The notes under the pieces were generated by a model. It made no database searches, had not been told where the DNA came from, and saw only the letters and a program-made list of their open reading frames with translations. The position numbers and the translations under genes were made by a program. From a virus, in the IMG/VR virus record IMGVR_UViG_3300042731_002777, positions 1 through 26,805 of that record: a stretch of 26,805 nucleotides of DNA; one strand, given 5' to 3'. Position 1 is the first letter of the stretch, and every line of letters begins with the position of its first letter. This document shows, in pieces, positions 9,254-24,230 of this stretch.

Positions 9254-9298
9254 ATGACATCGAACATACCAAGTGCAGGTAAAAATGCGCAAGTTTAA
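9254..9298 (+). CDS. possible 14-codon leader peptide overlapping infC
   Basis: ATG 9254 follows a strong site (AAGGAG, 9243-9248) and encodes MTSNIPSAGKNAQV, ending at TAA 9296-9298, past the IF-3 start at 9285 in another frame. The strong site belongs to this frame and not to IF-3, so IF-3 may be translated by re-initiation or coupling. It could also be a chance frame. Confidence 0.4.
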   Translation: MTSNIPSAGKNAQV

Positions 9299-10059: not shown

Positions 10060-10061
10060 TC

Positions 10062-10090
10062 TTGACAATTGTTGTTGTCAGTACTATATT
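10062..10090 (+). promoter_or_regulatory. sigma70-like promoter (TTGACA/TATATT)
   Basis: TTGACA (10062-10067), 17 bases, TATATT (10085-10090). The start region reads TATAAG, one base off the TGTAAG seen elsewhere. TGACAA/TTGTCA form a 6-bp inverted repeat over the -35 box (10063-10080). The leader to hsp20 is about 180 bases. Confidence 0.83.
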
Positions 10091-10187
10091 AATTATATAA
10101 GAAAAAACACCAACACGAAAAGAAAAACTTAAACAAAAACATTTTTAACAATTTAATAAGACTGGGGTTGCTACCTAATAAGCACGT

Positions 10188-10209
10188 GGAGGGCCACGGT
10201 TAGCCCTCC
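10188..10209 (+). other. GC-rich hairpin in the long hsp20 leader
   Basis: A 7-bp stem GGAGGGC (10188-10194) / GCCCTCC (10203-10209) with an 8-base loop and no T run. It stands out in a leader (10097-10279) that is otherwise A-rich. It may be a leftover terminator, an mRNA stabiliser or part of a structured regulatory RNA. Confidence 0.6.
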
Positions 10210-10211
10210 GA

Positions 10212-10219
10212 CATAAATA
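10212..10219 (+). promoter_or_regulatory. T4-late-like box CATAAATA before hsp20
   Basis: CATAAATA placed 60 bases before the hsp20 ATG and 2 bases after the GC-rich hairpin. By T4 geometry transcription would start near 10225, giving hsp20 a late promoter besides the upstream sigma70-like one. Confidence 0.5.
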
Positions 10220-10279
10220 AACATTGGATGCCTATGAAGGGTCCATAACATTAATCTTGCTTTTATAAGGAGAAACAAA

Positions 10280-10714
10280 ATGACAAGACTAACAACATTC
10301 GACTTGAATAAACTCACACCACACAGTGTTGGATTTGACAGAATATTTGATGATATGTTCAGATATGTAGAACACTCAAATAACACAGGATACCCCCCTT
10401 ACAATATTATCCAACAGGAAGAGAACTTCCAAATTGAAATGGCAGTTGCCGGAGTAACTTTGGAGGATTTAGATATTGAAGTCGCAGACGGTGTACTAGC
10501 GATACGTTACACACCACAAGAAGTGGAACAGCCTGAATGGACATATATTCACAAAGGTGTTGCACAGCGTAGATTTGAACGTAAATTTACACTTGCGGAT
10601 GATGTAGTAGTAAATGGTGCTCGTATGGAAAACGGTATGCTTTATATTGAACTAGAGCGTATTATTCCAGAAGAGAAGAAACCTCGCAAAATTGAAATTG
10701 AATATGTAAAGTAA
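10280..10714 (+). CDS. hsp20: small heat-shock protein (Hsp20/IbpA family)
   Basis: A 144-residue Hsp20 chaperone that holds unfolding proteins in a refoldable state without ATP. After an N-terminal arm (FDRIFDDMFRYVE) comes the alpha-crystallin domain: YPPYNII, ENFQIEMAVAGVTLEDLDIE, GVLAIRYTP, the IbpA-like YIHKGVAQRRFERKFTLADDV and MENGMLYIELERIIPEEKKPRKIEI with the C-terminal I-x-I-type motif. It is complete and of IbpA length. An AAGGAG site precedes the ATG. Hsp20 genes are common in T4-like cyanophages and are thought to aid assembly or stress tolerance. It has both an early-type and a late-type promoter upstream. Confidence 0.93.
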   Translation: MTRLTTFDLNKLTPHSVGFDRIFDDMFRYVEHSNNTGYPPYNIIQQEENFQIEMAVAGVTLEDLDIEVADGVLAIRYTPQEVEQPEWTYIHKGVAQRRFERKFTLADDVVVNGARMENGMLYIELERIIPEEKKPRKIEIEYVK

Positions 10715-10721
10715 TACACCC

Positions 10722-10745
10722 GGGGGGCTAGGCAACTAGCCCCTC
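10722..10745 (+). other. GNRA-capped hairpin between hsp20 and clpS
   Basis: GGGGCTAG (10724-10731), tetraloop GCAA, CTAGCCCC (10736-10743), extendable to 10 bp. No T run follows, so it is more likely an mRNA-end stabiliser or processing site than a full terminator. Confidence 0.7.
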
Positions 10746-10760
10746 TGATTTGGAATAGAT

Positions 10761-11060
10761 ATGAGCACACAACTTTCAGTAACCGAAGATACAACAATTA
10801 GTTTCACTACGCCTAGTAAATACAAAGTTATTTTACTAAACGATAATCAAACTCCAATGCAGTTTGTTATTGAATTACTAATAGCAATTTTTAACAAGTC
10901 TGCTGTAGAAGCAGAACAAGTTACTATGGAAGTGCATAATAACGGAAAAGGTATTGCTGGAATTTATTTTTACGAAATAGCAGAACAAAAAGTTCATGAA
11001 GCAACACTAGTGAGTCGTACTAACGGCTTCCCACTATCATTTAAAATAGAAGAAGAGTAA
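10761..11060 (+). CDS. clpS: ClpS, N-degron adaptor of the ClpAP protease
   Basis: A 99-residue ClpS. This adaptor captures proteins with destabilising N-terminal residues, delivers them to ClpA and also inhibits ClpA handling of ssrA-tagged substrates. The core is KYKVILLNDNQTPMQFV (residues 20-36), VTMEVHNNGKGIAGIY and ATLVSRTNGFPLSFKIEEE. By alignment to E. coli ClpS the N-degron pocket residues Asn27, Asp28, Thr31, Met33 and His59 are kept; the usual second Asp is Asn29. The N-terminal extension needed to engage ClpA is present but divergent. It lies 3 bases before guaC and some 3.9 kb from the tmRNA. Confidence 0.92.
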   Translation: MSTQLSVTEDTTISFTTPSKYKVILLNDNQTPMQFVIELLIAIFNKSAVEAEQVTMEVHNNGKGIAGIYFYEIAEQKVHEATLVSRTNGFPLSFKIEEE

Positions 11061-11063
11061 ACA

Positions 11064-12260
11064 ATGAGAATTGAAAACGAAATCCTTTTGGATTATGGCG
11101 ATGTCTTGATTCGTCCGAAGCGTAGCACACTTGGCTCACGTAAAGAAGTAGACTTAAATAGAGAATTTAATTTTGTAAACTATAGCAACGAGTCAGAAAA
11201 TATTCATTATTATGGTATTCCTATTATGGGTAGTAACATGGATGGAGTTGGTACATTTAAACAAGCAGATATAATGGCAACAGGCGGATTGTTTACTTGC
11301 CTTGTAAAAACATATACATCCGATGAGTTAATTGCATATTTTGGAGAGGGTATCAGTGATCGTACTTCTAATGTTGCAATGAGTATCGGTATTAAAGATT
11401 CTGACAGAAATAAATTTGATATAGTTTATAAAGAAGTTGGCGAACGGTTGAAATATGTTTGTATTGATGTAGCAAATGGCTATAGCGAACGTTTTGTAAA
11501 TTATGTAAAACAATTCCGCACGGACTATCCAAATGTTGTAATCATTGCAGGTAATGTAGTTACTGCAGACCAAACACAGGAGTTAATCTTAAATGGCGCA
11601 GATATTGTTAAAGTTGGTATTGGTCCTGGCAGTGTTTGTACTACTCGTATCCAAACTGGTGTTGGTTATCCTCAGTTATCTGCTGTTATTGAATGCGCAG
11701 ACGCCGCTCATGGTCTTGGCGGTCATATTATTGCTGACGGCGGCTGTACTTGTCCTGGTGATGTGGCTAAAGCATTTGCTGCTGGTGCTGACTTTGTAAT
11801 GCTCGGTGGTATGCTTGCTGGACACGATGAAGGCGGCGGCGAAGTAATTAAGCAAACACATGAAACCGGCAGAGCAGTACAACCACCATATCCTCCGGAA
11901 ATGCCAGAAGAAGAAATAAAAAAGATACAAGAACAAATCGAATCTGGCGAAATTGAGCCACCGATGCGTCCTGAGTTCGAAGAAAAAAAGTTTGTAAAGT
12001 TTTACGGTATGAGCAGCGATGCAGCAAATACTAAACATTTTGGCGGTCTAAAAGATTATCGCAGTAGTGAAGGACGTGAAGTACTTGTTCCGTATCGTGG
12101 GGCAGTTGCAGCAACAGTACAAAATATCTTAGGTGGTATTCGCAGTACTTGCACTTATGTTGGTGCACCTACATTGAAACAACTTAGTAAGTGTACAACA
12201 TTCGTTCGTGTTAACAATCAATTCAATCGTGTATATGAAAGTACAACCACTAAAATGTGA
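11064..12260 (+). CDS. guaC: GMP reductase with an acidic insertion
   Basis: A 398-residue GuaC-type (beta/alpha)8 enzyme that converts GMP to IMP with NADPH. The catalytic loop GPGSVCTTR with Cys192, [72 protein letters not shown] and [14 protein letters not shown] are diagnostic of GuaC, not IMP dehydrogenase; there are no CBS domains. GuaC is usually about 345 residues. The excess is a charged Pro/Glu-rich insertion at about 262-308, just before the flap FVKFYGMSS. During infection it could channel host guanine nucleotides to IMP and adenine nucleotides, useful for an AT-rich genome (inference). Start follows clpS by 3 bases. Confidence 0.93.
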
Positions 12261-12266
12261 TAAATA
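12259..12266 (+). promoter_or_regulatory. T4-late-like box GATAAATA
   Basis: GATAAATA overlaps the guaC stop and lies 22 bases before the ATG at 12289, leaving room for a start near 12272 and the AGGA ribosome site. Confidence 0.5.
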
Positions 12267-12288
12267 TTCTTAATACAGGAATATTTTA

Positions 12289-13113
12289 ATGAGAGCAAAT
12301 GAATTACTAGACCTAGATGAGGGCGTCGGACAAGCAGGTGTTGATTACGAAAACCGTGTTGCAAAAGCAATCGTAGATGCACAACTTCCTATATTACAAT
12401 TAACTAAATCAGGCGGTGCTGCATATAGTGCCGCTGATCCTGCTGATATTGAAGCCACGCTCAATGGTAAGCCGTTTTTAGTAGAATGTAAATCAGGGCC
12501 TAGCGACACAATGGGTAGTTTTCTAATGGCGTACAATAAACAAAGTGGTGAATTTATTCCTAGTAAGAAAGCCTTAGAAAAAGTAGAACCAGAAGATTTA
12601 CAAATTGCTCAAGTTGCATTACAAAACCGCAAGTCGGCAATTGATGCTTACTTAGATGAAATTGCAACACGTGAACCAGTAGCATTGCATCAACAAGCCC
12701 TTAAAGGTGTTCCTTTTGTAGCAGAGTATAACACCAAAGAAGAGATGAAAAACGAAGGTTATCAGCGAGCAATTCAGCAAATGGTAACCGCAGGTCCTAA
12801 CTTTATTGCTAACCTATATAACTCAAAGGGCGTGTATTACATCCAAGTTGGTAGCCGTGGATTGTTTTACATGGGCAAAGATATTTTTAATTTAGGTGTT
12901 CCTAAATTTAACGGTGAAGTTAAAATGGAAATACGTTTTAAACCAGCCGGCGACTCAACTGGTGCAACTAGCCGTAGAGCAAGTGCAGCCGTTGGCGAAG
13001 AAATTCAAGCACGTAAAGTTGATTTAGTATGTGGTGGTAAAATTGTTACAAAAGATAAATCACCATTCACACTAGACGATCCTGAAAGTATTCGTACATT
13101 ATTCAATCAATAA
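12289..13113 (+). CDS. PD-(D/E)XK-like nuclease candidate with possible capsid-targeting leader
   Basis: A 274-residue protein. Near residues 50-68 it has SAADPADIEATLNGKPFLVECKSG: an Asp, a hydrophobic strand and an E-x-K, the arrangement of PD-(D/E)XK nucleases. An upstream Glu (DYENRVAKAI) fits the family's first helix. The rest is unassigned. The N-terminus MRANELLDLDEGVG looks like a separate leader with an L-x-E site (after residue 11) as recognised by the T4 prohead protease, resembling leaders of T4 internal proteins. A late-type box lies upstream. It could be packaged and injected, for example to attack host DNA; this is inference. Confidence 0.6.
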   Translation: MRANELLDLDEGVGQAGVDYENRVAKAIVDAQLPILQLTKSGGAAYSAADPADIEATLNGKPFLVECKSGPSDTMGSFLMAYNKQSGEFIPSKKALEKVEPEDLQIAQVALQNRKSAIDAYLDEIATREPVALHQQALKGVPFVAEYNTKEEMKNEGYQRAIQQMVTAGPNFIANLYNSKGVYYIQVGSRGLFYMGKDIFNLGVPKFNGEVKMEIRFKPAGDSTGATSRRASAAVGEEIQARKVDLVCGGKIVTKDKSPFTLDDPESIRTLFNQ

Positions 13114-13245
13114 ATTAGCTATGCAATTTGTGCATATCGAGAATGCAAAAATCTTGAGTGATTTTCTTGGTTTTATGTGTTAAATAAGTATGAAGAACAA
13201 GAGAAGTTCGATAATACACATATATATACATAGAAAGAGAAAAAA

Positions 13246-13497
13246 ATGACACAAGCAATTATTGCAGCAAGCAATGCATTACACATCAGTGCAATACTAG
13301 ACTTCTTCCGTGATCTAAAAAGAAGTTATGCTCATGCTAAAAGAGTTAAAGCAACAATAAAAGAACTGTCTAGATTAAGTGATCGTGAACTAAACGATAT
13401 TGGTTTAGCACGTGGAGACATTTGGGCTATCGCACACGAAGATGCAGATTATAAAAGATTTGCAGAAACAAACAACAACTTAAAAGGATGGGTGTAA
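13246..13497 (+). CDS. DUF1127 (YjiS-like) small protein
   Basis: An 83-residue protein whose central part, IKELSRLSDRELNDIGLARGDI (about residues 44-65), is the DUF1127 signature. The family is abundant in Alphaproteobacteria, where short members affect RNA turnover and phosphate or carbon metabolism. An N-terminal amphipathic helix (ISAILDFFRDLKRSYAHA) precedes it. The family is host-type, so the gene was probably acquired from, or mimics, an alphaproteobacterial regulator. It overlaps the next gene's start by one base (TAATG). Confidence 0.85.
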   Translation: MTQAIIAASNALHISAILDFFRDLKRSYAHAKRVKATIKELSRLSDRELNDIGLARGDIWAIAHEDADYKRFAETNNNLKGWV

Positions 13498-13676
13498 TGA
13501 GTACACTAGTAATGAACACAATCGTAAATCCATTTAAAGGATTTGGCAGAGGTTTTTGGAACTTCTGTGAAGTAGCAGGTTATGCAAGAGCAGCATCAGA
13601 ATTATCACGTCAAGGGTTACATAAAGAAGCAAAGGCTTGTATGATGCAAGTTGCAAAACTAAGACAAGCAAAATAA
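13497..13676 (+). CDS. DUF1127-associated small basic protein, 59 aa
   Basis: Start 13497 overlaps the previous TAA; an alternative in-frame ATG at 13488 exists, and AAGGATG upstream could serve either. The product has a hydrophobic N-terminus (FKGFGRGFWNFCEVAGYARAA) and a helix ASELSRQGLHKEAKACMMQV. That ARAA-x-EL-x-R-G...EAK pattern often accompanies or extends DUF1127 proteins in Alphaproteobacteria. A terminator follows. It probably works with the preceding DUF1127 protein. Confidence 0.68.
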   Translation: MSTLVMNTIVNPFKGFGRGFWNFCEVAGYARAASELSRQGLHKEAKACMMQVAKLRQAK

Positions 13677-13701
13677 TTTGCCACATAACAACAAACTAAA
13701 A

Positions 13702-13730
13702 AGAGACGCCCGGTCTAGGACGTCTTTTTT
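13702..13730 (+). terminator. Rho-independent terminator
   Basis: Stem AGACG-C-CC / GG-A-CGTCT (one mismatch, loop around GGTCTA) followed by TTTTTT. It ends the DUF1127 unit directly before the next -35 box. Confidence 0.8.
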
Positions 13731-13731
13731 C

Positions 13732-13760
13732 TTGACAAAATTTAATACGATAAATATACT
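13732..13760 (+). promoter_or_regulatory. overlapping sigma70-like and late-type promoters
   Basis: TTGACA (13732-13737), 17 bases, TATACT (13755-13760). A GATAAATA late-type box (13749-13756) overlaps the -10, so the unit from 13782 could be read in both phases. Confidence 0.75.
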
Positions 13761-13781
13761 TGTACACGGAGGTACTTGTTT

Positions 13782-13943
13782 ATGGACAATAGCGGACTAA
13801 CACTAGACCCGACAGGCAACGAATTATACCGTCGTGAACTATTAGCATTAACTCAAGAAAATGAAATATTAAGAAAAAATGTACAAGAACTTCAAGAGCA
13901 ATTGCAAAATAGTTATAAGCGAATAGGTGAATTAACAAAGTAA
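13782..13943 (+). CDS. small coiled-coil protein, 53 aa
   Basis: ATG 13782 has a GGAGG site upstream and encodes 53 residues. After a short N-terminus (MDNSGLTLDPTGNEL) comes a leucine-zipper-like helix, LLALTQENEILRKNVQELQEQ, to the C-terminus. It is likely a dimeric coiled coil. The stop overlaps the next start (TAATG), coupling it to the YqgE-like gene. No family is recognised. Confidence 0.75.
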   Translation: MDNSGLTLDPTGNELYRRELLALTQENEILRKNVQELQEQLQNSYKRIGELTK

Positions 13944-14488
13944 TGGAATTAGCAGACAGATTTTTAGTTAGCATGCCAACATTGCGTGACGTCAGTTTCA
14001 ATAAGACTGTAATTTATATGAACGAGTTTTCAATGAATGGCGCTAGCGGCTGGGTCGTTAATAGACAACTTGATAATCAAGTTAGTGAACGCTTACGTAA
14101 AGGAATGGGTTTACATAAAAATGTTCCTCTTTATTATGGCGGACCAGTAGAAGTAAATCATGCATACGTTTTACATACAAATGATTTTAAAATTCCAAGT
14201 ACAGTACAATTAAATGATACATTAAGTGTTACTCGTGATAAAGCAATTATTAATGTTTTTAATTTAGGACAGTTTCCTGAATACTGGCGTATTATAATTG
14301 GCAACAGTCAATGGGGACCAGGACAGTTAGAAGATGAAATTGTTGGACTACATCGACAAGGACGTAGTAGTTGGACCAATTGTCCTTACAGTCACGATTT
14401 AATGTGGAACACTCAACCACCTAGGCAGTGGGACACTGCAATTCAAACTGCAGCAGAAAATTTAACAGAAAAATTCCTCAATTTTTAA
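13943..14488 (+). CDS. YqgE/AlgH family protein (UPF0301)
   Basis: A 181-residue protein of the YqgE/AlgH (DUF179) family, widespread in Proteobacteria, of unsettled biochemical role. The hallmark blocks are in order: LADRFLVSMPTLRDVSFNKTVIYM (split here by an extra Ala-Asp after Leu), GASGWVVNR, VPLYYGGPVEVNHAYVLH and WGPGQLEDEIV. It is complete and of normal length (about 185). AlgH was named from alginate control in Pseudomonas, but mechanism is unproven. It is co-translated with the upstream coiled-coil gene. A phage copy may act on host envelope or stress physiology (speculative). Confidence 0.85.
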   Translation: MELADRFLVSMPTLRDVSFNKTVIYMNEFSMNGASGWVVNRQLDNQVSERLRKGMGLHKNVPLYYGGPVEVNHAYVLHTNDFKIPSTVQLNDTLSVTRDKAIINVFNLGQFPEYWRIIIGNSQWGPGQLEDEIVGLHRQGRSSWTNCPYSHDLMWNTQPPRQWDTAIQTAAENLTEKFLNF

Positions 14489-14753: not shown

Positions 14754-14952
14754 AGCAATAGCAAGTCTAAGTAATGATGATTTAACATACTTAGAAAAAC
14801 TACTTGGGCAAGAGTTTGCTCAACTTAACGAACGCAAACAACAATTTAAAACAAAAAACGGCTGGGTACCAAAGGACAACAGCCAAAAAGTATTAAGACT
14901 ATTAAATGCAGTTCGTGCACAAAAACACTTGACAAATATACCCAAATGGTAG
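14743..14952 (+). CDS. hypothetical protein, 69 aa
   Basis: Start 14743 has GGGAAG upstream and overlaps the preceding gene by 11 bases; a longer in-frame start at 14689 would overlap far more and is disfavoured. The product is helical and basic (LTYLEKLLGQEFAQLNERKQQ; LRLLNAVRAQKH). The tmRNA promoter is embedded in its last codons and stop region (14929-14960). Family unknown. Confidence 0.68.
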   Translation: MVSKAIASLSNDDLTYLEKLLGQEFAQLNERKQQFKTKNGWVPKDNSQKVLRLLNAVRAQKHLTNIPKW

Positions 14953-14960
14953 TATAAATA
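14929..14960 (+). promoter_or_regulatory. dual promoter of the tmRNA
   Basis: TTGACA (14929-14934), 18 bases, TATAAA (14953-14958). The same -10 is a perfect T4 late box TATAAATA (14953-14960). TGTAAGCGTTA (14964-14974) follows at the same offset as in the promoters at 3581 and 4167. Confidence 0.78.
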
Positions 14961-14963
14961 ATC

Positions 14964-15187
14964 TGTAAGCGTTACAAAGCGTATTTGGACTCCGGGGCAG
15001 TACCGGACGCCTCCACCATAAACACTATGGGGGCGAAATAGGTTTCGACAGGTAGGCAAGTTTACAAAACACAAATGCAAACGATAACTTTGCACCTTCT
15101 GGTTACGCTCTAGCAGCATAATTAAGGGGGCGGCCACTGCCTAGCAACAGAAGTGTGGCACTAAATACTAACGTTCAATAGAACATA
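14964..15187 (+). ncRNA. ssrA: circularly permuted (two-piece) tmRNA
   Basis: The acceptor piece comes first: a T-arm-like stem with CCGG arms, CGCCTCC (15008-15014), discriminator A and encoded CCA (15016-15018). A 10-base spacer (15019-15028) follows, then the 5' end GGGGGCG (15029-15035) and the usual AGGTTTCGACAGG. The two ends form a 7-bp acceptor stem with G-U at the third pair, the alanine identity element. The tag frame from GCA 15077 to TAA 15121 encodes ANDNFAPSGYALAA. A GC-rich pseudoknot or hairpin region follows. This permuted layout and the ANDNFA start are typical of Alphaproteobacteria. tmRNA rescues stalled ribosomes and tags products for ClpXP. Outer ends are approximate. 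Confidence 0.93.
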
Positions 15188-15536: not shown

Positions 15537-15572
15537 GCACGTCAAGACTGTTGATTTTCAGTTTTGACGTGC
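15537..15572 (+). repeat. 14-bp inverted repeat at the operon promoter
   Basis: GCACGTCAAGACTG (15537-15550) and CAGTTTTGACGTGC (15559-15572), a 14-bp stem with one G-U pair and an 8-base loop TTGATTTT. No T run follows. It covers the -35 region of the operon starting at 15610, so it may be an operator or a terminator-like structure for the upstream gene. Confidence 0.75.
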
Positions 15573-15580
15573 TATATATT
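15551..15580 (+). promoter_or_regulatory. probable promoter of the 12-gene membrane/copper-protein operon
   Basis: TTGATT (15551-15556), 18 bases, TATATT (15575-15580). TTGACG (15564-15569) is an alternative -35 but is poorly spaced. It is weaker than the other promoters and overlaps the inverted repeat, consistent with a regulated promoter. Confidence 0.5.
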
Positions 15581-15609
15581 ATTATATACATAGACACACG
15601 GAGAACGAT

Positions 15610-15960
15610 ATGAATCAAACACCAAAGCCCATTGGTTGGGCAACAACTCTCATTACAATTAGAAAAGACTTAGGATTGATGTATTCAAGCGTTATGACTA
15701 TTGAAAATTCGCCGCTACGCAAATTAGATCCACGTGTAGCACACATGGTATTTCAATGCCTGGCATTTGTATGGAGTGGTATTTTTGCTGCAATGCTAGG
15801 AAGTTATATAGCATTTGGTATTAGTGCTTCAATACACGTTTTATTTCTTGCAGGCGTGTTTATTACAGCAATGACAATGCGTGAAGCAGATAAGCGTCCA
15901 CAAACATTCAATCGCTTTGGCGGGTATAATGGACGTGGTAATGGAGGTGAGCATGAGTGA
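15610..15960 (+). CDS. two-TM membrane protein, operon gene 1
   Basis: A 116-residue protein with a cytoplasm-type N-terminus and two membrane segments at about residues 48-68 (VFQCLAFVWSGIFAAML) and 72-92 (AFGISASIHVLFLAGVFIT). A basic Gly-rich tail (RFGGYNGRGNGG) follows. It has a GGAG ribosome site and heads a run of 12 overlapping genes. The family is not recognised. Position suggests a membrane partner of the pseudoazurin/DoxX-like proteins further down. Confidence 0.75.
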   Translation: MNQTPKPIGWATTLITIRKDLGLMYSSVMTIENSPLRKLDPRVAHMVFQCLAFVWSGIFAAMLGSYIAFGISASIHVLFLAGVFITAMTMREADKRPQTFNRFGGYNGRGNGGEHE

Positions 15961-16111
15961 TCGTATTAATTACTGCACATTGAAAGACCTAGGCAAAGCA
16001 TTTGCTATTATTGCTTTCTTTATGGTAGGTGTGCCTATTTTGCTAGCCGATCAAAAGTATTGTAAGCAAAGTATTATTTTACCTTGCTTTCCATGGGCAG
16101 AGACCGAATGA
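15953..16111 (+). CDS. single-TM small protein, operon gene 2
   Basis: Start 15953 has a very strong GGAGGTGA site and overlaps the previous stop by 8 bases; a longer in-frame start at 15881 lacks one. The 52-residue product has one membrane helix (AFAIIAFFMVGVPILLA) and three cysteines, two in the short segment after it (DQKYCKQSIILPCFPW). These two might be disulfide-bonded or bind metal in the periplasm. Function unknown. Confidence 0.7.
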   Translation: MSDRINYCTLKDLGKAFAIIAFFMVGVPILLADQKYCKQSIILPCFPWAETE

Positions 16112-16293
16112 TGTATAATATTTTCAATAACAACACAGGCGAAACTGTTGCCATGGAGTTTGATAGCGAACAGCAAATGAAAGATTGGATAGCAGAAACT
16201 GGTTGGACTTGCTTAGGCGAGCAAACAACCTATTTGCCTACTAGGCACGAACGTATGAAAAACAAAGAGGAGTTTGCAGGATGGGGAAGTTAA
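16108..16293 (+). CDS. small soluble protein, operon gene 3
   Basis: ATG 16108 overlaps the previous stop (ATGA); a second ATG follows directly at 16111. The 61-residue product is soluble and acidic-aromatic (MEFDSEQQMKDWIAETGWTC), without a signal peptide. The gene overlaps the next small gene by 13 bases. Not recognised. Confidence 0.65.
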   Translation: MMYNIFNNNTGETVAMEFDSEQQMKDWIAETGWTCLGEQTTYLPTRHERMKNKEEFAGWGS

Positions 16294-16355
16294 AAGAACT
16301 ACTACGTGTAGAATTTCCTTGGGCTAAAGATTTGCCAGAGGTAACAGGCAGATGA
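16281..16355 (+). CDS. 24-residue peptide, operon gene 4
   Basis: ATG 16281 after GAGGAGTTTGCAGG encodes MGKLKELLRVEFPWAKDLPE and four more residues, ending in TGA that overlaps the next ATG (ATGA). The continuous coupling before and after supports real translation, as a peptide or a coupling device. Confidence 0.5.
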   Translation: MGKLKELLRVEFPWAKDLPEVTGR

Positions 16356-16567
16356 GCAATCCAAAAGCACAAGCACAAAAAACAGCAGAAGAAACTTATG
16401 TAGGTTTTATGAACTGGACCAAATACACAGTTTATGGATCACTTGCTTTCTTTCTAGCAGTAGCCAGTTGTAACTTTGGCGTAGAAACTGGAGAAGGTAA
16501 AACAGGATCACAATATGATGGGAGTGTATATTCTCCATCAAATCTAAATGTAAAGGATAAAAAATGA
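16352..16567 (+). CDS. CoxIV-like small membrane protein, operon gene 5
   Basis: A 71-residue protein with one membrane helix (residues about 27-43). The stretch AEETYVGFMNWTKYTVYGSLAF resembles the bacterial aa3-type cytochrome c oxidase subunit IV peptide of Alphaproteobacteria, whose conserved part is a similar [EK]T[FY]-x-GF-x-[RKN]W-T run before a single helix. The match is short and by eye. An alternative reading is a lipoprotein, since VASC looks like a lipobox, although the n-region would be long. It overlaps the pseudoazurin gene by 4 bases (ATGA), which supports a respiratory-chain link. Confidence 0.5.
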   Translation: MSNPKAQAQKTAEETYVGFMNWTKYTVYGSLAFFLAVASCNFGVETGEGKTGSQYDGSVYSPSNLNVKDKK

Positions 16568-17010
16568 AACTTAGACTAGCAGCACTAGGTGCATTACTTG
16601 CACTATCATTTGCATTGCCAACAGGAGTGTTGGCAGCAGATATGACAATTGATATGTTAAACAAACGTGACGATGGCGCTAAGATGGTGTATTCAGAGGA
16701 CATTGCAACGATTGATGTCGGCGACACTATTACTTGGCTACCAACACAAAAAGGTCACAACGTTGAGTTTATCGCAGGCCCAGATGGTTGGGAAGCACCA
16801 AAGAAATCAAAATTATCAAAAGAATATTCCTACACATTTGATACACCAGGTGTTTATTTGTATCAGTGTACACCACATAAATCAATGGGTATGATTGCCA
16901 TTGTAGTTGTAGGTGATCTAACACAAGAAGGTGTAGATGCCATTCGTGATGCCAAGGTAAAGGGCAAGTCAAAAAAGAAACTTAAAGAGTTGTTGGCAGA
17001 ACTACCATGA
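16564..17010 (+). CDS. pseudoazurin (periplasmic type-1 blue copper protein)
   Basis: A 148-residue cupredoxin. A signal peptide ends near VLAA (residue 24-25). The mature protein has the pseudoazurin blocks IDMLNKRDDGAKMVY, ATIDVGDTITWLPTQKGHNVEF, YSYTFDTPGVYLYQCTPHKSMGM and a helical Lys-rich C-terminus. All four copper ligands are visible: His65, Cys102, His105 and Met110, with the right Cys-x2-His-x4-Met spacing. Pseudoazurins shuttle single electrons in the periplasm of Proteobacteria, for example between cytochromes and terminal reductases or oxidases. It is co-translated with the CoxIV-like and DoxX-like genes (ATGA overlaps on both sides). It parallels cyanophage plastocyanin, but for a heterotroph. 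Confidence 0.92.
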   Translation: MKLRLAALGALLALSFALPTGVLAADMTIDMLNKRDDGAKMVYSEDIATIDVGDTITWLPTQKGHNVEFIAGPDGWEAPKKSKLSKEYSYTFDTPGVYLYQCTPHKSMGMIAIVVVGDLTQEGVDAIRDAKVKGKSKKKLKELLAELP

Positions 17011-17423
17011 CAGCATTAGCACAGAGAATTACCTCCGCAATTCCTGAATTCTGTATGAGTCACTGGCTCATACGGATACCCCTTATAATTGTATTTCTAA
17101 CGCAAGGTATTAGCAAACTACCATTTACAGTAGAAGATGCTGAAGCAATGGACTTGCCAGCATTGGTTTGGTGGTTTGTTGTGTATGGCGAAATTGGTGC
17201 TGGAATTGGACTAGCAATTGGCGGACTTGTTATTGTCAAAGCATTAAAAGAACTACAAGATCTAATCACACGTTTCTCAGGTATTGTTATTTGTAGTATT
17301 ATGACAGGTGTTATTTGGACACTGGAGCCAGAAAACTTATGGACCTTTATGATAGATGATCCATTCCACGTTATGTTGTGGGTCGGTGGTCTGTTTTTTG
17401 CACTGAGAGGTAATCGTACTTAA
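17007..17423 (+). CDS. DoxX-like four-TM membrane protein
   Basis: A 138-residue inner-membrane protein with about four hydrophobic helices: LIRIPLIIVFLTQGISKL (about 21-38), LVWWFVVYGEIGAGIGLAIGGLV (about 53-75), FSGIVICSIMTGVIW and FHVMLWVGGLFFAL. The R-x-PLII..F..GI-K-L first helix and GE-x-GAG second helix fit DoxX/DoxD-like proteins, a family tied to quinone-linked thiosulfate or thiol oxidation and membrane redox. It overlaps pseudoazurin by 4 bases, strengthening the idea of an electron-transfer pair. Substrate unknown. Confidence 0.7.
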   Translation: MTALAQRITSAIPEFCMSHWLIRIPLIIVFLTQGISKLPFTVEDAEAMDLPALVWWFVVYGEIGAGIGLAIGGLVIVKALKELQDLITRFSGIVICSIMTGVIWTLEPENLWTFMIDDPFHVMLWVGGLFFALRGNRT

Positions 17424-17599
17424 TGTGGGTAACAAGGGATAAAGAAGGAGAACTTGTTTCGATGTCCCCGCTTAGAGCAGAAGCAATTCAGATAGCAGAA
17501 AAATATTTGACTAGAGATGAATTTATTATTCACGAGTCGTTAGATCAAATTGAACTGTTTGAGATTTATCGCAACTATTTTAATAGGAAGTATAAATGA
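17423..17599 (+). CDS. small soluble protein, 58 aa, operon gene 8
   Basis: ATG 17423 overlaps the DoxX-like stop (TAATG) and encodes 58 residues (MWVTRDKEGELVSMSPLRAE..., then helix AIQIAEKYLT and a basic aromatic end NYFNRKYK). Soluble, no signal peptide, family unknown. It is coupled to the next gene by ATGA. Confidence 0.65.
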   Translation: MWVTRDKEGELVSMSPLRAEAIQIAEKYLTRDEFIIHESLDQIELFEIYRNYFNRKYK

Positions 17600-17706
17600 T
17601 TTATGTTTATTTTGGAGCAGCATATGGAATACCTTTGCTAATGATGCTATTTGCATATGCAATGGAGCCAAAGCCTAAAAAAGGTAATAGTGGTGTAAGA
17701 CTATGA
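17596..17706 (+). CDS. 36-residue membrane peptide, operon gene 9
   Basis: ATG 17596 (AGGA upstream, ATGA overlap) encodes MIYVYFGAAYGIPLLMMLF followed by a short Lys/Pro-rich tail. It is a single-TM peptide like small subunits of respiratory complexes. The evidence is coupling and composition only. Confidence 0.6.
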   Translation: MIYVYFGAAYGIPLLMMLFAYAMEPKPKKGNSGVRL

Positions 17707-17831
17707 TAGAAATTATCGGAATATTTAAAGACCGCACTATTAAAAAAACATTTAATAATGTATTAGATGCTATTGATTTTAGAGATGATCTTGATGCACA
17801 GTATGCTCGAGTGATTTGGAAAAAACTATGA
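17703..17831 (+). CDS. small soluble protein, 42 aa, operon gene 10
   Basis: ATG 17703 overlaps the previous stop (ATGA). The 42-residue product begins MIEIIGIFKDRTIKKTFNNV and ends with a charged helix, ARVIWKKL. No signal or membrane segment. It overlaps the next start by 4 bases. Not recognised. Confidence 0.6.
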   Translation: MIEIIGIFKDRTIKKTFNNVLDAIDFRDDLDAQYARVIWKKL

Positions 17832-18061
17832 AGTGGTTAATAGTTTTTTATATGTCAGTAGCAGGTCCGTTTGATATTCCGTATTTAGAATTTGAAACAC
17901 GTAACGAATGCGTGGATTATGTAAACGATCCAGATAATGCTAGTAGACTTGCTATAGAAGTTATTGATGTAGCAGGATTTAATGATCAAATATTAGCAGT
18001 TGTATGTTTACCTGAGAATGAAGTGAGAGAAAACATAAATGAAACCGAATCGAACGTTTGA
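17828..18061 (+). CDS. small exported protein, operon gene 11
   Basis: Start 17828 (ATGA overlap) is preferred over the in-frame TTG at 17816. The 77-residue product has a signal-like N-terminus (MKWLIVFYMSVAGPF). An acidic domain with two cysteines (RNECVDYVND and VVCLPENE) could form a disulfide in the periplasm. It overlaps the next gene by 23 bases. Family unknown. Confidence 0.65.
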   Translation: MKWLIVFYMSVAGPFDIPYLEFETRNECVDYVNDPDNASRLAIEVIDVAGFNDQILAVVCLPENEVRENINETESNV

Positions 18062-18263
18062 ACTATCTGTACAAGATATTGAGATTATTGAAACTGCACT
18101 TAGTGCAAAAATTGATCGTCGTACTAGAAAAGCAATTGTAGACGATAGTGTTGATAAAGAAAAACTACTAGACGAAGCAAATATGATTAGAGATTTGCTA
18201 GGTCGTATACATAATCAAAAAGCATGGTATCGTCCAAAAGACGGTACTTATGTAGGAGGTTAG
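18039..18263 (+). CDS. conserved-looking small phage protein, operon gene 12
   Basis: A 74-residue soluble helical protein (FELSVQDIEIIETALSAKIDR; KEKLLDEANMIRDLLGRIHNQ). The helical hairpin and WYRPKDGTYVGG tail resemble small conserved phage proteins of unknown role. It is the last gene of the overlapping run, and a hairpin follows 92 bases later. Confidence 0.7.
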   Translation: MKPNRTFELSVQDIEIIETALSAKIDRRTRKAIVDDSVDKEKLLDEANMIRDLLGRIHNQKAWYRPKDGTYVGG

Positions 18264-18354: not shown

Positions 18355-18376
18355 GGGCTGTACCTTAGTACAGCCT
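18355..18376 (+). terminator. hairpin between the copper-protein operon and the porin-like gene
   Basis: GGCTGTAC (18356-18363), loop CTTA, GTACAGCC (18368-18375), preceded by eight A and followed by a weak ATAGTTTT. It could terminate the 12-gene operon or stabilise the porin-like mRNA. No convincing promoter was found in 18264-18354, so read-through or processing is possible. Confidence 0.6.
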
Positions 18377-18401: not shown

Positions 18402-19196
18402 ATGAAAAACACAATCTTTTCTGTTGTAGCAGTATTTAGCATGGCCGGTGCGGCATTTGCTGAAACTGAAAATGTAACAGTTCCAAGCCCAGTATTGTCA
18501 GGCGAAGTATCACTAAACTTTGCTGAAACAGCAGCAGGTGACTGGGGTGGTGCAATGGGTCTGGACTTAGGTGTAGACGCAGCAGGTCTAGCATCAGTTG
18601 ACTTAGATTTTAGTGCAACTGACGGAAATGCAGTAACACTAGACAACTGGACAGTTGGCACAGAAGTTGGCGGCATTGCTGTAGCATTTGGTGACGACAA
18701 TGGCGTTATGCCAGGTGCAGAAGGTGAACAAACACTAGCAGCACCAGCAATGACTGAATCACTACTAGTAACTGTAGGCGATGCACAAGTTGCAGTAGGT
18801 CTTACAGACTGGACAGCAGATGTAACAGACATCTCAAACATTCAAGGTGCATACACACTTGACGTAGCAGGACTTGATGTAACTGCAGCAGGTGACATGA
18901 ACCTAGACACAGACAACGTTGTACTAGGTGCAGGCGTTGACGGACTAGCAGTAGGTGAAGCAGTAATCGGCGGCGCATTAACATATGATACAGACGCAGA
19001 GATGCTAGGCTTCGAAGGTGTTGCAAATGTTGCAAGTATTACAGCATATGCAAACGGTGACCAAGATGACATGCTACAAAACGTAGGTGGCGAGTACACA
19101 TATGCACTAGGTGGCGCCGAATTAACAGCAGGCGCAAACTATAACCTAGACACAGAAGACTTTACACCAACAGTTGGCGTAAGTTTCTCGTTCTAA
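18402..19196 (+). CDS. porin-like outer-membrane beta-barrel protein
   Basis: A 264-residue secreted protein with signal peptide MKNTIFSVVAVFSMAGAAFA. The mature chain is very acidic and Gly/Ala/Val-rich, with alternating patterns such as YTLDVAGLDVTAAGDMNLD and ending in TPTVGVSFSF, the C-terminal aromatic strand recognised by the Bam machinery. About 12-14 strands are plausible. It has strong isolation signals: a hairpin before and a strong terminator after. It looks like a small porin of alphaproteobacterial type; a phage could use it to change uptake or block superinfection. That role is inference. Confidence 0.72.
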   Translation: MKNTIFSVVAVFSMAGAAFAETENVTVPSPVLSGEVSLNFAETAAGDWGGAMGLDLGVDAAGLASVDLDFSATDGNAVTLDNWTVGTEVGGIAVAFGDDNGVMPGAEGEQTLAAPAMTESLLVTVGDAQVAVGLTDWTADVTDISNIQGAYTLDVAGLDVTAAGDMNLDTDNVVLGAGVDGLAVGEAVIGGALTYDTDAEMLGFEGVANVASITAYANGDQDDMLQNVGGEYTYALGGAELTAGANYNLDTEDFTPTVGVSFSF

Positions 19197-19220
19197 TACT
19201 GCTGAATTATTAAGCAATTA

Positions 19221-19246
19221 AAAGGACCTTTAATGGTCCTTTTTTT
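19221..19246 (+). terminator. strong Rho-independent terminator
   Basis: AAAGGACC (19221-19228), loop TTTAAT, GGTCCTTT (19235-19242) and a run of T. It ends the porin-like gene. Confidence 0.9.
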
Positions 19247-19249
19247 ATG

Positions 19250-19257
19250 AGTAAATA
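19250..19257 (+). promoter_or_regulatory. late-like box AGTAAATA
   Basis: AGTAAATA lies exactly 5 bases before the ATG at 19263, the same leaderless geometry as at 859 and 5727. The N5 is CTAGT, close to TTAGT at 854-858. Confidence 0.4.
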
Positions 19258-20483: not shown

Positions 20484-20501
20484 GTGTTGAGGAGAGTGAT
20501 A

Positions 20502-20972
20502 ATGAAATTTGGTACAATAGTGTTATCTATTGTTCTGACTCTTGCAACCACAGCAAGTGCAGACTTAACATATCAATTTAAAAATCCTAGTTTTAGTGGC
20601 ATTGGATACAGTGCACACGTACTTAGTCTTGAGCAATTGGAATTTAATCGCAGCGAAGATATACGAAAAGAAGCTGAAGCAGAAGCGGATCGTATTGAAC
20701 GTGAATTACAAAACAGCACACTAAACAAGTTCATTAAAAATCTTGAATCAAGAATATATGCTACACTTTCAAAGCAAATGGTAGACAATATGTTTGCCGC
20801 TTGTGGAGATGAAACAGGTGTTACTTGTGCTAATAGTGGCACGACAACAGTAGAAGGTGCAACTATTGCTTGGGTTAAAGATACAGAAACAGGCAGTATT
20901 ACACTTACAATAGACGGCGATGATGGTTATACAGAAATAACTATCCCGGGTCCTGGGGAGTTTACATTTTAA
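20502..20972 (+). CDS. csgF: CsgF-like curli assembly protein
   Basis: A 156-residue secreted protein. ATG 20502 (GAGGAG site) is preferred over the in-frame GTG at 20484. After the signal peptide (ending TASA) comes DLTYQFKNPSFSG (about residues 21-33), the CsgF hallmark in which the N-terminus inserts into the CsgG pore. A helix with many Glu/Arg residues (EDIRKEAEAEADRIERELQ) and a beta-rich C-terminal part with two cysteines follow. CsgF couples curlin secretion to surface nucleation. The C-terminus is longer than in E. coli CsgF (~138). It overlaps csgG by one base, matching the order F-G seen in bacterial operons. Confidence 0.85.
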   Translation: MKFGTIVLSIVLTLATTASADLTYQFKNPSFSGIGYSAHVLSLEQLEFNRSEDIRKEAEAEADRIERELQNSTLNKFIKNLESRIYATLSKQMVDNMFAACGDETGVTCANSGTTTVEGATIAWVKDTETGSITLTIDGDDGYTEITIPGPGEFTF

Positions 20973-21751
20973 TGTGGAAAATATTACCATTAGCATTTTT
21001 ACTAACAGCATGTAGTTCAGGACTAAAAACTTTACCTGACAAATTTAATCAACCTGCAACTGTACAAGAAAATCCAATGACATATGAACTAAGAGATCTT
21101 CCTCCATTGGATGGTCCTGCAATGACTGTAGGTGTTTACAGTTTCTTAGATAAAACAGGACAACGTGCTCCTAGTGATGGAGCAGCAAGTTTGAGCAGTG
21201 CAGTTACACAAGGTGCAGAAGTATGGGTCATTGACGCACTATTAGAAGCAGGCGGTGGTAAATGGTTTGAAGTTGTTGAACGTGTTGGTATGGACAATGT
21301 TGTAAAAGAACGTCAACTTATCCGCAGTACAAGAGAAAATTATGAAAAAGAAGTAACACCGTTAAAGCCAATGAAGTTTGCTGGTATAATATTAGAAGGC
21401 GGTATTGTAGGTTACGATAGTAATATAGTTACAGGTGGTAAAGGCGCAAGATATTTTGGAATCGGTGCAACACAAGAATATAGAATAGACACAGTTACAG
21501 TAGGAATGCGCATCGTAAGTGTTAGCACAGGCAGAGTACTAGCAAGTGTAGCAGCACAAAAAAGTATAGCCAGTTATAGAACTGGTATAGACGCATTTAA
21601 ATTTATTGAATTAGGCACACGAAGTGTTGAAGTTGAAACTGGTTACAGTATAAATGAACCGACTAACTTAGCAGTAAGATCGGCAATTGAAGCAACTGTT
21701 ATAGAACTAGTTTATGAAGGCGTTCGCAAGGGTTTGTGGAATTTTAAGTAA
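20972..21751 (+). CDS. csgG: CsgG-like curli secretion channel lipoprotein
   Basis: A 259-residue outer-membrane lipoprotein that forms the nonameric channel exporting curlin subunits. A signal peptide with lipobox LTAC (Cys14) precedes CsgG-domain blocks: MTVGVYSFLDKTGQRAP, TQGAEVWVIDALLEAGGGKWFEVVER, ILEGGIVGYDSNIVTGG, ARYFGIGATQEYRIDTVTV and VLASVAAQKSI. The region before AMTVGVYS has the PL-DGPA junction typical of the family. Length is normal (~260-277). It is translated in coupling with csgF. csgG homologues are known in T4-like marine phages, where their use is unproven. Confidence 0.92.
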   Translation: MWKILPLAFLLTACSSGLKTLPDKFNQPATVQENPMTYELRDLPPLDGPAMTVGVYSFLDKTGQRAPSDGAASLSSAVTQGAEVWVIDALLEAGGGKWFEVVERVGMDNVVKERQLIRSTRENYEKEVTPLKPMKFAGIILEGGIVGYDSNIVTGGKGARYFGIGATQEYRIDTVTVGMRIVSVSTGRVLASVAAQKSIASYRTGIDAFKFIELGTRSVEVETGYSINEPTNLAVRSAIEATVIELVYEGVRKGLWNFK

Positions 21752-21782
21752 GCACCAACCCCGTAAAAAAAGGACATGAATA

Positions 21783-22517
21783 ATGCATAAAATAATTTTA
21801 CTTATTGCAAGTATGTTGTTCGCTACGGGTGCAATGGCTAATGAAATATACATAGAACAAGTAGGCGATGGATTAGATTTAGACATAACCCAAGACGGAC
21901 AAGACAACTCTTTTGGTAATAGTACTACAGGTGTAACACTAAATGGTGACGATATGACTTTTAGTATTACACAAACTGGAAGTGATAATACAATAGCGGC
22001 AACTATCAAGGGCAACAACTACACAGGTACTTGGAGTATACTGGGCAGTTACAATGACATTGATTTGTTGTGTAGTAGCACAACAACAGGTAACTGTGAT
22101 ACAGCAACTCTAGATATAGACATTGACGGAGACTATACAACATTTGACTTTGATATTGGCGAAACAAGTGACGCAGATAATGCAGATATAAGTTTTACAA
22201 TTGATGGCGCTGGTAATGTTGTAGAAATGACTGTAGATGGCACAAGTGCACTAATTGACGTTGTTATTAACAACAGTGCAGGTACAGGTACAGCACCAGG
22301 CACAAATGGAACACTTACTGCAGCAACAGGTACAACTGGTAATGTTGTAGACATTGATGTGGATGGCAACGGAGATGTTGTGGGACACACAATTGATCTA
22401 ACAATTACAGGTGGTGGTAGTTACTACAACATCACACAAAGCGGCATTTATGATAATCACTTAGATGCAACTTTTACAGGTGATGATCAATCAGTAGATA
22501 TTACACAGACAGACTAA
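21783..22517 (+). CDS. curlin-repeat amyloid subunit (CsgA/CsgB-like) 1
   Basis: A 244-residue secreted protein with signal peptide ending GAMA. Curlin-type repeats are visible at both ends, NEIYIEQVGDGLDLDITQDGQDN, MTFSITQTGSDNTIAATIKGNN and YYNITQSGIYDNHLDA, DDQSVDITQTD, with the x-Q-x-G-x2-N spacing. The middle is Asp/Thr/Gly-rich with degenerate repeats (IDIDGDYTTFDFDIG) and two cysteines. Very acidic and low in Lys. It has an AAGGAC site, 31 bases after csgG. It would be the fibre subunit exported by CsgG/CsgF. Confidence 0.82.
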   Translation: MHKIILLIASMLFATGAMANEIYIEQVGDGLDLDITQDGQDNSFGNSTTGVTLNGDDMTFSITQTGSDNTIAATIKGNNYTGTWSILGSYNDIDLLCSSTTTGNCDTATLDIDIDGDYTTFDFDIGETSDADNADISFTIDGAGNVVEMTVDGTSALIDVVINNSAGTGTAPGTNGTLTAATGTTGNVVDIDVDGNGDVVGHTIDLTITGGGSYYNITQSGIYDNHLDATFTGDDQSVDITQTD

Positions 22518-23611
22518 TGTGGAAATACATAGTTGTTCTATTATTACTAACAAATACATCTTGGGCAAGTATAGGCGAAATTACAGCCGCAACTGGCCCG
22601 GGACAAATTAAACGTGAAGAAAATAAGTTCGACGGCGCAGTTGGCACTGGACTTGAAATGATGGATACCATCACAACAGACAATGGCGCTTGGCAATTAG
22701 AATTTGTAGATGACACACGTGTTGATGTTACTGAACATTCACGTATGGTAATTGATGAATTTGTATACGATCCCGACAGTAAAAAAGGTGCATTAAGTAT
22801 GCGAGCAACACTTGGCGCTGTTCGTTATGCAAGTGGACAAATAGCAAAGAATTCAAGACAACGAGTAAACATACGTACACCGAGTGCTAAAATTACAGTG
22901 CGTGGCACAGACTTTATGATGATTGTAGACGAAATCGGTGGCAGTATGATTACACTATTGCCAAGTTGTGATACTAGCGGACTATGTGAAGTAGGTGAAA
23001 TTGCAGTTGAAAGTGACGTAGGAATGGTTATAATGAATCAAGCATTTGAAACTACAGTTGTGAAGTCACCATGGGCTGCACCTGCAAAACCTGTTATACT
23101 ACAACTGCCAAGTGACATGCTACGTGCAATGCTAATTGTACGTAAGCAGCCAGTATACGACGAAGAATTAGAAAAACAATATCCTGTAACAAACTTATTA
23201 GATATTGACTTTTTAAAATTTGATGAATTAGATAAAGATCCATTGGTTGAAGGTATAAAAAACATTTGGGTAACAGATTTAGATAACTTAACATATTTAG
23301 ATGAAGTCTTTACAGATGAAATGGAAAGACAAATGCAGCAAATACTTGCACAATGGTTAGACGAATTAGGCACACAAAATATTGAGTTATTTGCTGTTAA
23401 GGATCGTGGATTAGACAGAGAAACAAATATATTTTATGATGAAGATCCAAACTACATTGTAAGCAGAAAGCAAGGCGATGATCATTTCTTTCAGTTATAC
23501 TTACATGTAGATCAAGGATATGTTATAGATATGGTACAGGAGGGGTTCAGTGCATACGGTTATCGTGTTGGCGTTGGCGGCGGCAGTAGCATTAGCATCA
23601 ACCAGCAGTAA
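22517..23611 (+). CDS. FecR-domain periplasmic protein
   Basis: A 364-residue exported protein; signal peptide ends near SWAS. A FecR domain occupies about residues 20-150: IGEITAATGPGQIKRE, the GTGLEMMDTITTDNGAWQLEFVDDTRVDVTEHSRMVIDEF core and the RATLGAVRYASGQI / RTPSAKITVRGTDF strands. The C-terminal half is acidic and helical and unassigned. FecR domains act in periplasmic sensing or bind envelope structures; stand-alone secreted forms near surface-fibre genes may anchor or nucleate fibres. It overlaps the previous stop by one base and the next curlin gene by 62 bases. Confidence 0.82.
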   Translation: MWKYIVVLLLLTNTSWASIGEITAATGPGQIKREENKFDGAVGTGLEMMDTITTDNGAWQLEFVDDTRVDVTEHSRMVIDEFVYDPDSKKGALSMRATLGAVRYASGQIAKNSRQRVNIRTPSAKITVRGTDFMMIVDEIGGSMITLLPSCDTSGLCEVGEIAVESDVGMVIMNQAFETTVVKSPWAAPAKPVILQLPSDMLRAMLIVRKQPVYDEELEKQYPVTNLLDIDFLKFDELDKDPLVEGIKNIWVTDLDNLTYLDEVFTDEMERQMQQILAQWLDELGTQNIELFAVKDRGLDRETNIFYDEDPNYIVSRKQGDDHFFQLYLHVDQGYVIDMVQEGFSAYGYRVGVGGGSSISINQQ

Positions 23612-24230
23612 TGCCAGCGAAATATATATAAATCAATCTGGCGATAGTATCTCCTTGGAAATGACACAGCGCAGTACTGACAACTATGCTCAACTGTATT
23701 CTACAGGTGATTACAATAACATAGTAATACGTCAAGGTGTGCATAGTGACGACAGTTATGACGGCGATGAAACAGGCGGGCACGAAGCATACTGGACCGT
23801 GGATGGTGACTTCAACATTGTAGGCAGTTACCAAACAGATGTAAACAGAGGCGGTGGCGGAGGAGATCCGCATCACCTAGCAAATATAGTAAACGGTGAC
23901 AACAACATAGCATATCACACACAAAGAGGTAAGGCTGGTCACACAGGATTTATAGAAATACAAGGTAGTGACAACACAGTAGATTTATATCAACGAGGCA
24001 ATGGTGGACAAAAGTGGGCAGATGTTTATCTTACAGGTGATGATAATGTTGTTGATATAGATCAAAGAGGCAGTAACAGTGCAAGCGCCGCAGTTGATTT
24101 AACAAATAGCGGCGGAGCACATAATTTTACACTGACGCAAAATGTTACCACAAGTGCAGACAGTATTAGTGTAACTGGTTATTGTTACAATAGCGCAGGT
24201 TGCGCACTTACAGTAGATAGAAATAACTAG
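23550..24230 (+). CDS. curlin-repeat amyloid subunit (CsgA/CsgB-like) 2
   Basis: A 226-residue secreted protein starting with GTG 23550 after a strong AGGAGG site inside the end of the FecR gene. Signal peptide ends SSNA. Curlin-type repeats are clearer than in the first subunit: SEIYINQSGDSISLEMTQ, NNIVIRQG, NNIAYHTQRG, DNTVDLYQRG, DNVVDIDQRGSNSASA and HNFTLTQNV. Each pairs a Gln with an Asn in the strand-turn pattern of stacked amyloid strands. Both subunits open with EIYI-x-Q-x-GD, suggesting duplication; one may nucleate (CsgB-like) and the other polymerise. Confidence 0.84.
   Translation: MHTVIVLALAAAVALASTSSNASEIYINQSGDSISLEMTQRSTDNYAQLYSTGDYNNIVIRQGVHSDDSYDGDETGGHEAYWTVDGDFNIVGSYQTDVNRGGGGGDPHHLANIVNGDNNIAYHTQRGKAGHTGFIEIQGSDNTVDLYQRGNGGQKWADVYLTGDDNVVDIDQRGSNSASAAVDLTNSGGAHNFTLTQNVTTSADSISVTGYCYNSAGCALTVDRNN

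Follow-up and report, generated by a model that had tools for sequence, protein, structure and literature searches.

The virus record IMGVR_UViG_3300042731_002777 of IMG/VR, a stretch of 26,805 bases analysed as a whole and referred to here as the window, carries between positions 15610 and 18263 an operon of twelve small overlapping genes, at the centre of which lies the gene for a pseudoazurin, an exported blue-copper electron carrier. The pseudoazurin, a CoxIV-like protein (g4), a DoxX-like protein (encoded by dox) and two further small membrane proteins (g1 and g2) form a core which recurs, in shuffled order, in related phages, and in some of these a mitochondrial-type cytochrome c fills the place of the pseudoazurin. 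The core is probably a phage auxiliary module that keeps the aerobic respiration of the host running during infection, as judged from the nature and linkage of its genes. No published description of this module was found, nor any report of pseudoazurin, cupredoxin or DoxX as phage auxiliary genes, in a search whose scope lay outside supplements and subscription papers; the wider kind to which it belongs, the auxiliary metabolic gene, is already known. The genes of the operon are as follows.

15610..15960 (+): g1, 116 amino acids (aa), two transmembrane (TM) segments, conserved PLR and C-terminal GEH motifs; recurrent module member
15953..16111 (+): g2, 52 aa, single-TM peptide with conserved cysteines (YCT, YCKQS, PC); the strongest companion of g4
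16108..16293 (+): g3, 61 aa, small and soluble; variable companion, in 23 of 80 loci
16281..16355 (+): g3b, 24 aa; weakly supported, in 6 loci
16352..16567 (+): g4, CoxIV-like, 71 aa, an N-in TM segment followed by a phage-specific periplasmic tail of about 30 residues
16564..17010 (+): pseudoazurin precursor, 148 aa, Sec-type signal (by eye), predicted type-1 copper site H65/C102/H105/M110
17007..17423 (+): DoxX-like protein, 138 aa, four TM segments, PF07681 match (1.7e-7)
17423..17599 (+): g7, 58 aa; variable companion, in 10 of 80 loci
17596..17706 (+): g8, 36 aa, single-TM frame; weakly supported, in 2 loci on near-identical contigs
17703..17831 (+): g9, 42 aa; variable companion, in 25 of 80 loci
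17828..18061 (+): g10, 77 aa, hydrophobic N-terminus; variable companion, in 28 of 80 loci
18039..18263 (+): g11, 74 aa, soluble; frequent companion of the pseudoazurin, in 15 of 23 dereplicated loci

The pseudoazurin matches the Pfam family Copper-bind (2e-16, 60.6 bits against a cut-off of 21.2), and a profile of 33 phage pseudoazurins has solved pseudoazurins as its top matches in the PDB (3tu6, 1.9e-31). The ligands H65, C102, H105 and M110 are invariant in all 33 aligned phage proteins, in the contexts GHN and CxPHxxxGM; the preliminary description of this DNA had proposed a complete pseudoazurin with all four copper ligands, and the site indeed appears intact. The NCBIfam equivalog TIGR02375 is by far the best-scoring family, yet the window protein lies under its cut-off (102.2 versus 109.85 bits), as do phage copies (100-104 bits) and five marine bacterial relatives that were tested (93.4-109.4 bits). 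The protein is therefore termed a pseudoazurin-type cupredoxin, and membership of the equivalog is left unclaimed. Relatives are encoded in 335 viral contig stretches and are widespread in marine viral contigs. Among the cultured phages of INPHARED the sole relative is the distant plastocyanin of cyanophage P-RSM6 (29.8% identity over 53% of the length), and a nucleotide search of cultured phages with the operon block gave no match. As to its standing as an auxiliary metabolic gene, bacterial relatives exist, and it is absent from 15 large contigs that have the phage GMP reductase gene.

The most frequent of the named companions in the module is g4, which resembles an accessory oxidase subunit. 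The window copy itself scores 17 bits against PF07835 (E 0.0072), under the cut-off of 22, but the family is matched by 25 of 30 of its relatives (best 3.6e-6), one of which, L080, exceeds the cut-off at 24.4 bits, and hhalign aligns the g4 profile with the CoxIV proteins of six host genomes at 96.1% probability (E 2.9e-9), spanning the amphipathic start and the TM segment. By this profile comparison, the N-terminal and TM part of g4 is a homologue of subunit IV, an accessory subunit of the bacterial aa3 oxidase. In the alignment of relatives, the phage-specific tail of about 30 residues begins V-x-[SGA]-C-N-x-G-V. A PDB search with the g4 profile returned a single match, which was judged to be due to chance and discarded.

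The DoxX-like protein of the preliminary description was likewise recovered, with 32.2 bits against a PF07681 cut-off of 23.6 (E 1.7e-7) and four TM helices (H14-36, H52-77, H81-106 and H119-134) in the helical bundle predicted by AlphaFold2 (pLDDT 70.5). The corresponding model of g1 (pLDDT 70) has two long central helices, and for neither model was a meaningful fold match found in the PDB. The DoxX-like protein has no relative among the cultured phages of INPHARED; a ‘methylamine utilization protein’ of phage Mosig was considered and rejected, being without TM helices by eye. The gene context of the DoxX relatives in roseobacters was uninformative.

Genes were counted as linked, in dereplicated loci, if they shared a strand and lay no more than 2.5 kb apart, and since the 80 best matches to each query seeded from the window were kept, the shares that follow are upper estimates. 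Of 23 pseudoazurin loci, 17 had g4, 15 g11, 12 dox, 10 g2 and 8 g1, with the order varying. Reciprocal scans gave g2 in 23, pseudoazurin in 19, dox in 17 and g1 in 16 of 27 g4 loci; g4 in 20 and pseudoazurin in 19 of 31 dox loci; and g4 in 20 and dox in 15 of 31 pseudoazurin loci. The recurring core is therefore made up of pseudoazurin, g4, the DoxX-like protein, g1 and g2. These genes adjoin one another in the reciprocal scans, including on contigs with a T4-type capsid gene. The suggestion that all twelve genes make up one system was rejected, as wide co-occurrence is limited to about five or six of them, gene order changes between loci, and g3, g3b, g7, g8, g9 and g10 are variable.

Where pseudoazurin is missing from a dox locus, its position is in some cases taken by a small exported protein that has a CxxCH motif. 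This protein belongs to the class I cytochromes c (PF00034, 6e-10), the closest solved proteins being mitochondrial-type cytochromes c (PDB, 2.8e-19). Its gene, present in 51 viral loci, adjoins dox, g2, g4 or g1, and at least one of dox, g1, g2, g4 and g11 lies nearby in 11 of 14 dereplicated loci. Among 82 dereplicated module loci, 50 have pseudoazurin only, 8 cytochrome c only, 24 neither and none both; the exclusion has a one-sided Fisher p of 3e-4, a value that is optimistic because the phages are related. A mitochondrial-type cytochrome c thus fills the place of the pseudoazurin in related phages. An INPHARED search found no relative of this cytochrome c in pelagimyophages or phage Melnitz. 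Pseudoazurin and cytochrome c are unrelated and have little in common beyond the carriage of single electrons in the periplasm, so that the module most likely feeds the cytochrome c oxidase of the host. The classical acceptor of mitochondrial-type cytochrome c is the aa3 cytochrome c oxidase.

The module recurs on contigs with T4-type structural genes. The T4-type capsid gene gp23 lies on pseudoazurin module contigs of 135 kb (dox, g2, g4, g1 and pseudoazurin), 152 kb (the same genes), 178 kb (g1, g4, pseudoazurin and dox) and 119 kb (g1, g2, g4 and pseudoazurin), the gp23-bearing module contigs being labelled L363, L364, L603 and L339, plus L020. It is also found on cytochrome c contigs of 71-300 kb, one of them 299,910 bases long, and an 83.6-kb pseudoazurin contig carries gp20, gp18, gp17 and further T4 core genes. 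A 113-kb contig syntenic with the window, on which no capsid gene was found, has genes for a clamp loader, ribonucleotide reductase, PhoH and an endolysin, together with a tail fibre common to Pelagibacter phage Mosig and T4-type cyanophages. Siphovirus-type tail genes are present on a 76-kb contig with pseudoazurin, dox and g4, which suggests that the module genes have probably crossed phage types.

The 113-kb contig (L082-L087) additionally encodes a CHASE2 domain, an adenylate/guanylate cyclase domain, a xanthine/uracil-type permease, a periplasmic binding protein and DnaJ. A gene on it assigned to PHROG phrog_27398, ‘tail protein’ (L086:5450-6739), matches anion/xanthine-type permeases; it appears to be such a permease and was rejected as a tail protein, the label seeming to stem from bacterial DNA in phage records.

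The pseudoazurin also has bacterial relatives, at up to 73% identity, and most of these belong to pelagic alphaproteobacteria. In a tree with many weak forks, the phage proteins group with those of marine Rhodobacteraceae, apart from the cox-linked copies of SAR11 type. A SAR11 host is not indicated; the nearest pseudoazurins with clear bacterial neighbours are those of marine Rhodobacteraceae. Host pseudoazurin genes adjoin coxB, coxA and cox11-like genes (names by eye) in 7 loci, in one of which, at a contig end, only coxB and cox11 are visible, and COX1, the haem-copper oxidase subunit I, is found in 20 of 24 pseudoazurin-bearing host genomes. Together with the near absence of NirK and NosZ, the cox neighbours favour the host oxidase as acceptor. 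The companion genes of the module are absent from host pseudoazurin loci. Two contigs binned as bacterial, L098:1-12381 (Muricauda sp. TMED12) and L123:1-6815 (Rhodobacteraceae Water_Bin34), look like phage contigs with a module pseudoazurin, and for this reason were left out of the host evidence.

Beside the operon, at 14925-15162, lies a permuted two-piece transfer-messenger RNA (tmRNA) gene of alphaproteobacterial type (RF01849, 76.9 bits; RF04321, 79.6 bits), which ARAGORN missed and whose tag peptide reads, by eye, ANDNFAPSGYALAA. Its presence is consistent with an alphaproteobacterial host, and marine phages with two-piece tmRNAs have been described (PMC9004378).

The delivery of electrons by the module to the host oxidase is considered probable, and may be pictured as follows. 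In an alphaproteobacterial host, the pseudoazurin would be made in the periplasm and acquire its copper there, needing neither haem nor cytochrome-c maturation, and would pass single electrons to the terminal cytochrome c oxidase, replacing the host cytochrome c or acting beside it. In a further step, g4 would probably sit in or beside the host oxidase and favour docking of the phage carrier. The DoxX-like protein, g1 and g2, which co-vary with both, may be membrane partners. More tentative is the wider proposal that T4-type phages might remodel the terminal oxidase, bringing their own copper or haem donor and a CoxIV-like subunit with a donor-docking tail, along with DoxX, g1 and g2 as membrane partners; it is possible, though less readily granted than electron delivery itself.

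Several observations weigh against a role in respiration. Neither carrier is seen nearby in the 24 module loci mentioned above, and linkage is inflated by the choice of best matches and by the non-independence of related phages. The pseudoazurin of Paracoccus has been described as a donor to denitrification reductases (PMC12848317), and host pseudoazurins also lie beside a soxYZCD-like cluster (5 loci) or a sulfite-dehydrogenase-like gene (2 loci; names by eye). The invariant cysteine of g4, in V-x-[SGA]-C at the TM end, also fits a lipobox, so that g4 could be a lipoprotein. Finally, no oxidase catalytic subunit (subunit I) was found on 11 phage records, and any oxidase partner must thus be that of the host.

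Of the other explanations, the best placed, though unlikely, is that the module serves the oxidation of reduced sulfur, with thiosulfate:quinone oxidoreduction of DoxX/DoxD type and a carrier that takes electrons from the host Sox system or sulfite dehydrogenase. Thiosulfate:quinone oxidoreduction is known to involve proteins of the DoxX/DoxD type, parallels exist in phages with dsr or sox genes, and both the PF07681 match and the sox- and sulfite-dehydrogenase-linked host pseudoazurins would suit this explanation. However, relatives of sox or sulfite-dehydrogenase genes were not found in 1.33 Mb of phage loci, g4 suggests a link to cytochrome oxidase, the substitute mitochondrial-type cytochrome c is the classical oxidase donor, and the electrons would in any case still end at the same oxidase.

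A little less likely again is the handling of copper or redox stress, in which the carrier would buffer copper or scavenge oxidants, DoxX would belong to a membrane oxidative-stress complex and g4 would be a small lipoprotein. The lipobox pattern of g4 and the conserved cysteines of g2 agree with such a role, but it is a haem cytochrome c and no copper protein that replaces the pseudoazurin, and the N-terminal half of g4 matches host CoxIV. Support of denitrification, with pseudoazurin feeding the nitrite or nitrous oxide reductase of the host, is its textbook role in Paracoccus; here it is very improbable, as NirK was over its cut-off in only 1 of the 24 marine alphaproteobacterial genomes and NosZ was detected in none (in a NosZ search whose positive control was silent, cd1-type NirS lying outside its scope), and as g4 is linked to CoxIV. 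Bacterial contamination or an assembly artefact, which the close pseudoazurins of host bacteria might bring to mind, is refuted by the capsid-bearing contigs that carry the module, the window being moreover an IMG/VR virus record and host loci being without the companion genes.

The twelve overlapping frames noted at first reading are present at 15610-18263, with junction overlaps, from 5' to 3', of 8, 4, 13, 4, 4, 4, 1, 4, 4, 4 and 23 bases. Overlapping starts are common in phages, and conservation was therefore used as a test beyond chance. Genes of the operon other than that for pseudoazurin have relatives in 2 to 62 of 80 pseudoazurin-bearing loci, and the ten genes tested behave as real genes, since the median ratio of nonsynonymous to synonymous polymorphism (pN/pS) against relatives is 0.23-0.48. 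For g8 and g3b the relatives are too few to judge them as genes. The twelve-gene unit is framed by two strong hairpins, and downstream of it lies a gene which often adjoins the module.

15537..15572 (+): 5' hairpin of 14 pairs, minimum free energy -25.4 kcal/mol, z -6.0, with 0 of 200 shuffles as good; may terminate transcription of the gene upstream or serve as a 5' processing site
18355..18376 (+): closing hairpin, z -4.2, terminator-like on the opposite strand too
18402..19196 (+): predicted exported beta-rich protein, porin-like by eye, within 2.5 kb in 8 of 23 dereplicated loci; no Pfam or NCBIfam family match

Elsewhere in the window, the region 9273-14488 encodes phage versions of translation initiation factor IF3, Hsp20 and ClpS, along with a GMP reductase/IMPDH-type enzyme and an AlgH-like protein; relatives have conserved a number of these. 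A weak match to the Rhizobiales small RNA Atu_C8 (33 bits, cut-off 50) at 19168-19256 ends in a terminator-like hairpin. Adjacent genes at 20484-24230 are csgF, csgG, two for curlin-repeat proteins, of which one passes the Pfam cut-off and the other falls short of it, and one for a FecR-domain protein. Melnitz and the described pelagimyophages are reported to have csgF/csgG without csgA/csgB, so that the curli operon of the window may be fuller.

The upkeep of photosynthesis by phage genes is a classic subject of marine biology; for the question whether phages of heterotrophs, the larger group, support respiration in a similar way, no clear gene set had been available. The present module, widespread and conserved and able to have either a copper or a haem carrier, makes that question directly testable. 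If the proposed role is correct, phage fitness would be linked to the supply of copper and iron in the ocean, and several frequent hypothetical phage genes would acquire a function.

Compared with bacterial pseudoazurins (PDB 3tu6 and 1bqk; TIGR02375), the window protein shares the fold family by sequence, the four ligands and a matched C-terminal region, but is phage-borne and under the equivalog cut-off. Like subunit IV of bacterial aa3 cytochrome c oxidase (PF07835), g4 has an N-terminal amphipathic part and a single TM segment; unlike it, g4 is without the HKHG start of host Rhodobacteraceae and adds the conserved tail starting CN.GV. Curli genes, tmRNA, Hsp20 and a large TM protein of the window are each shared with at least one of the pelagimyophages and Melnitz (HTVC008M, Mosig; PMC9004378), but INPHARED searches detected in these phages no relative of pseudoazurin, DoxX or cytochrome c. 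Respiratory genes in viruses have been claimed before, in the form of a cbb3-type CoxI from the viral fraction of the Indian Ocean, possibly from viruses of heterotrophs (PMC3474794); that is a catalytic subunit from metagenomic sequences, whereas here a linked module without a catalytic subunit lies on long phage contigs. Phage haem synthesis has also been proposed to support alphaproteobacterial respiration (PMC11480375), and the main text of a global ocean survey of auxiliary genes names plastocyanin only, with no cytochrome, azurin or oxidase (PMC11360552).

The closest parallel is the plastocyanin of cyanophages (petE, for example in P-RSM6), likewise an exported blue-copper carrier encoded by marine phages, and proposed as a donor to cytochrome oxidase (PMC5083919). 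The window differs in that its carrier is a pseudoazurin, with the low identity given above, that the host is non-cyanobacterial, and that the carrier stands in a module with CoxIV-like and DoxX-like proteins and has a cytochrome c alternative. The view of the module as a respiratory counterpart of this plastocyanin in a phage of heterotrophs, first put forward in the preliminary description, is well supported by the copper site, the T4-type contigs and the exchange for cytochrome c. If the wider proposal of a remodelled terminal oxidase is right, the module would represent a takeover of aerobic respiration by phages, parallel to the takeover of photosynthesis by cyanophages.

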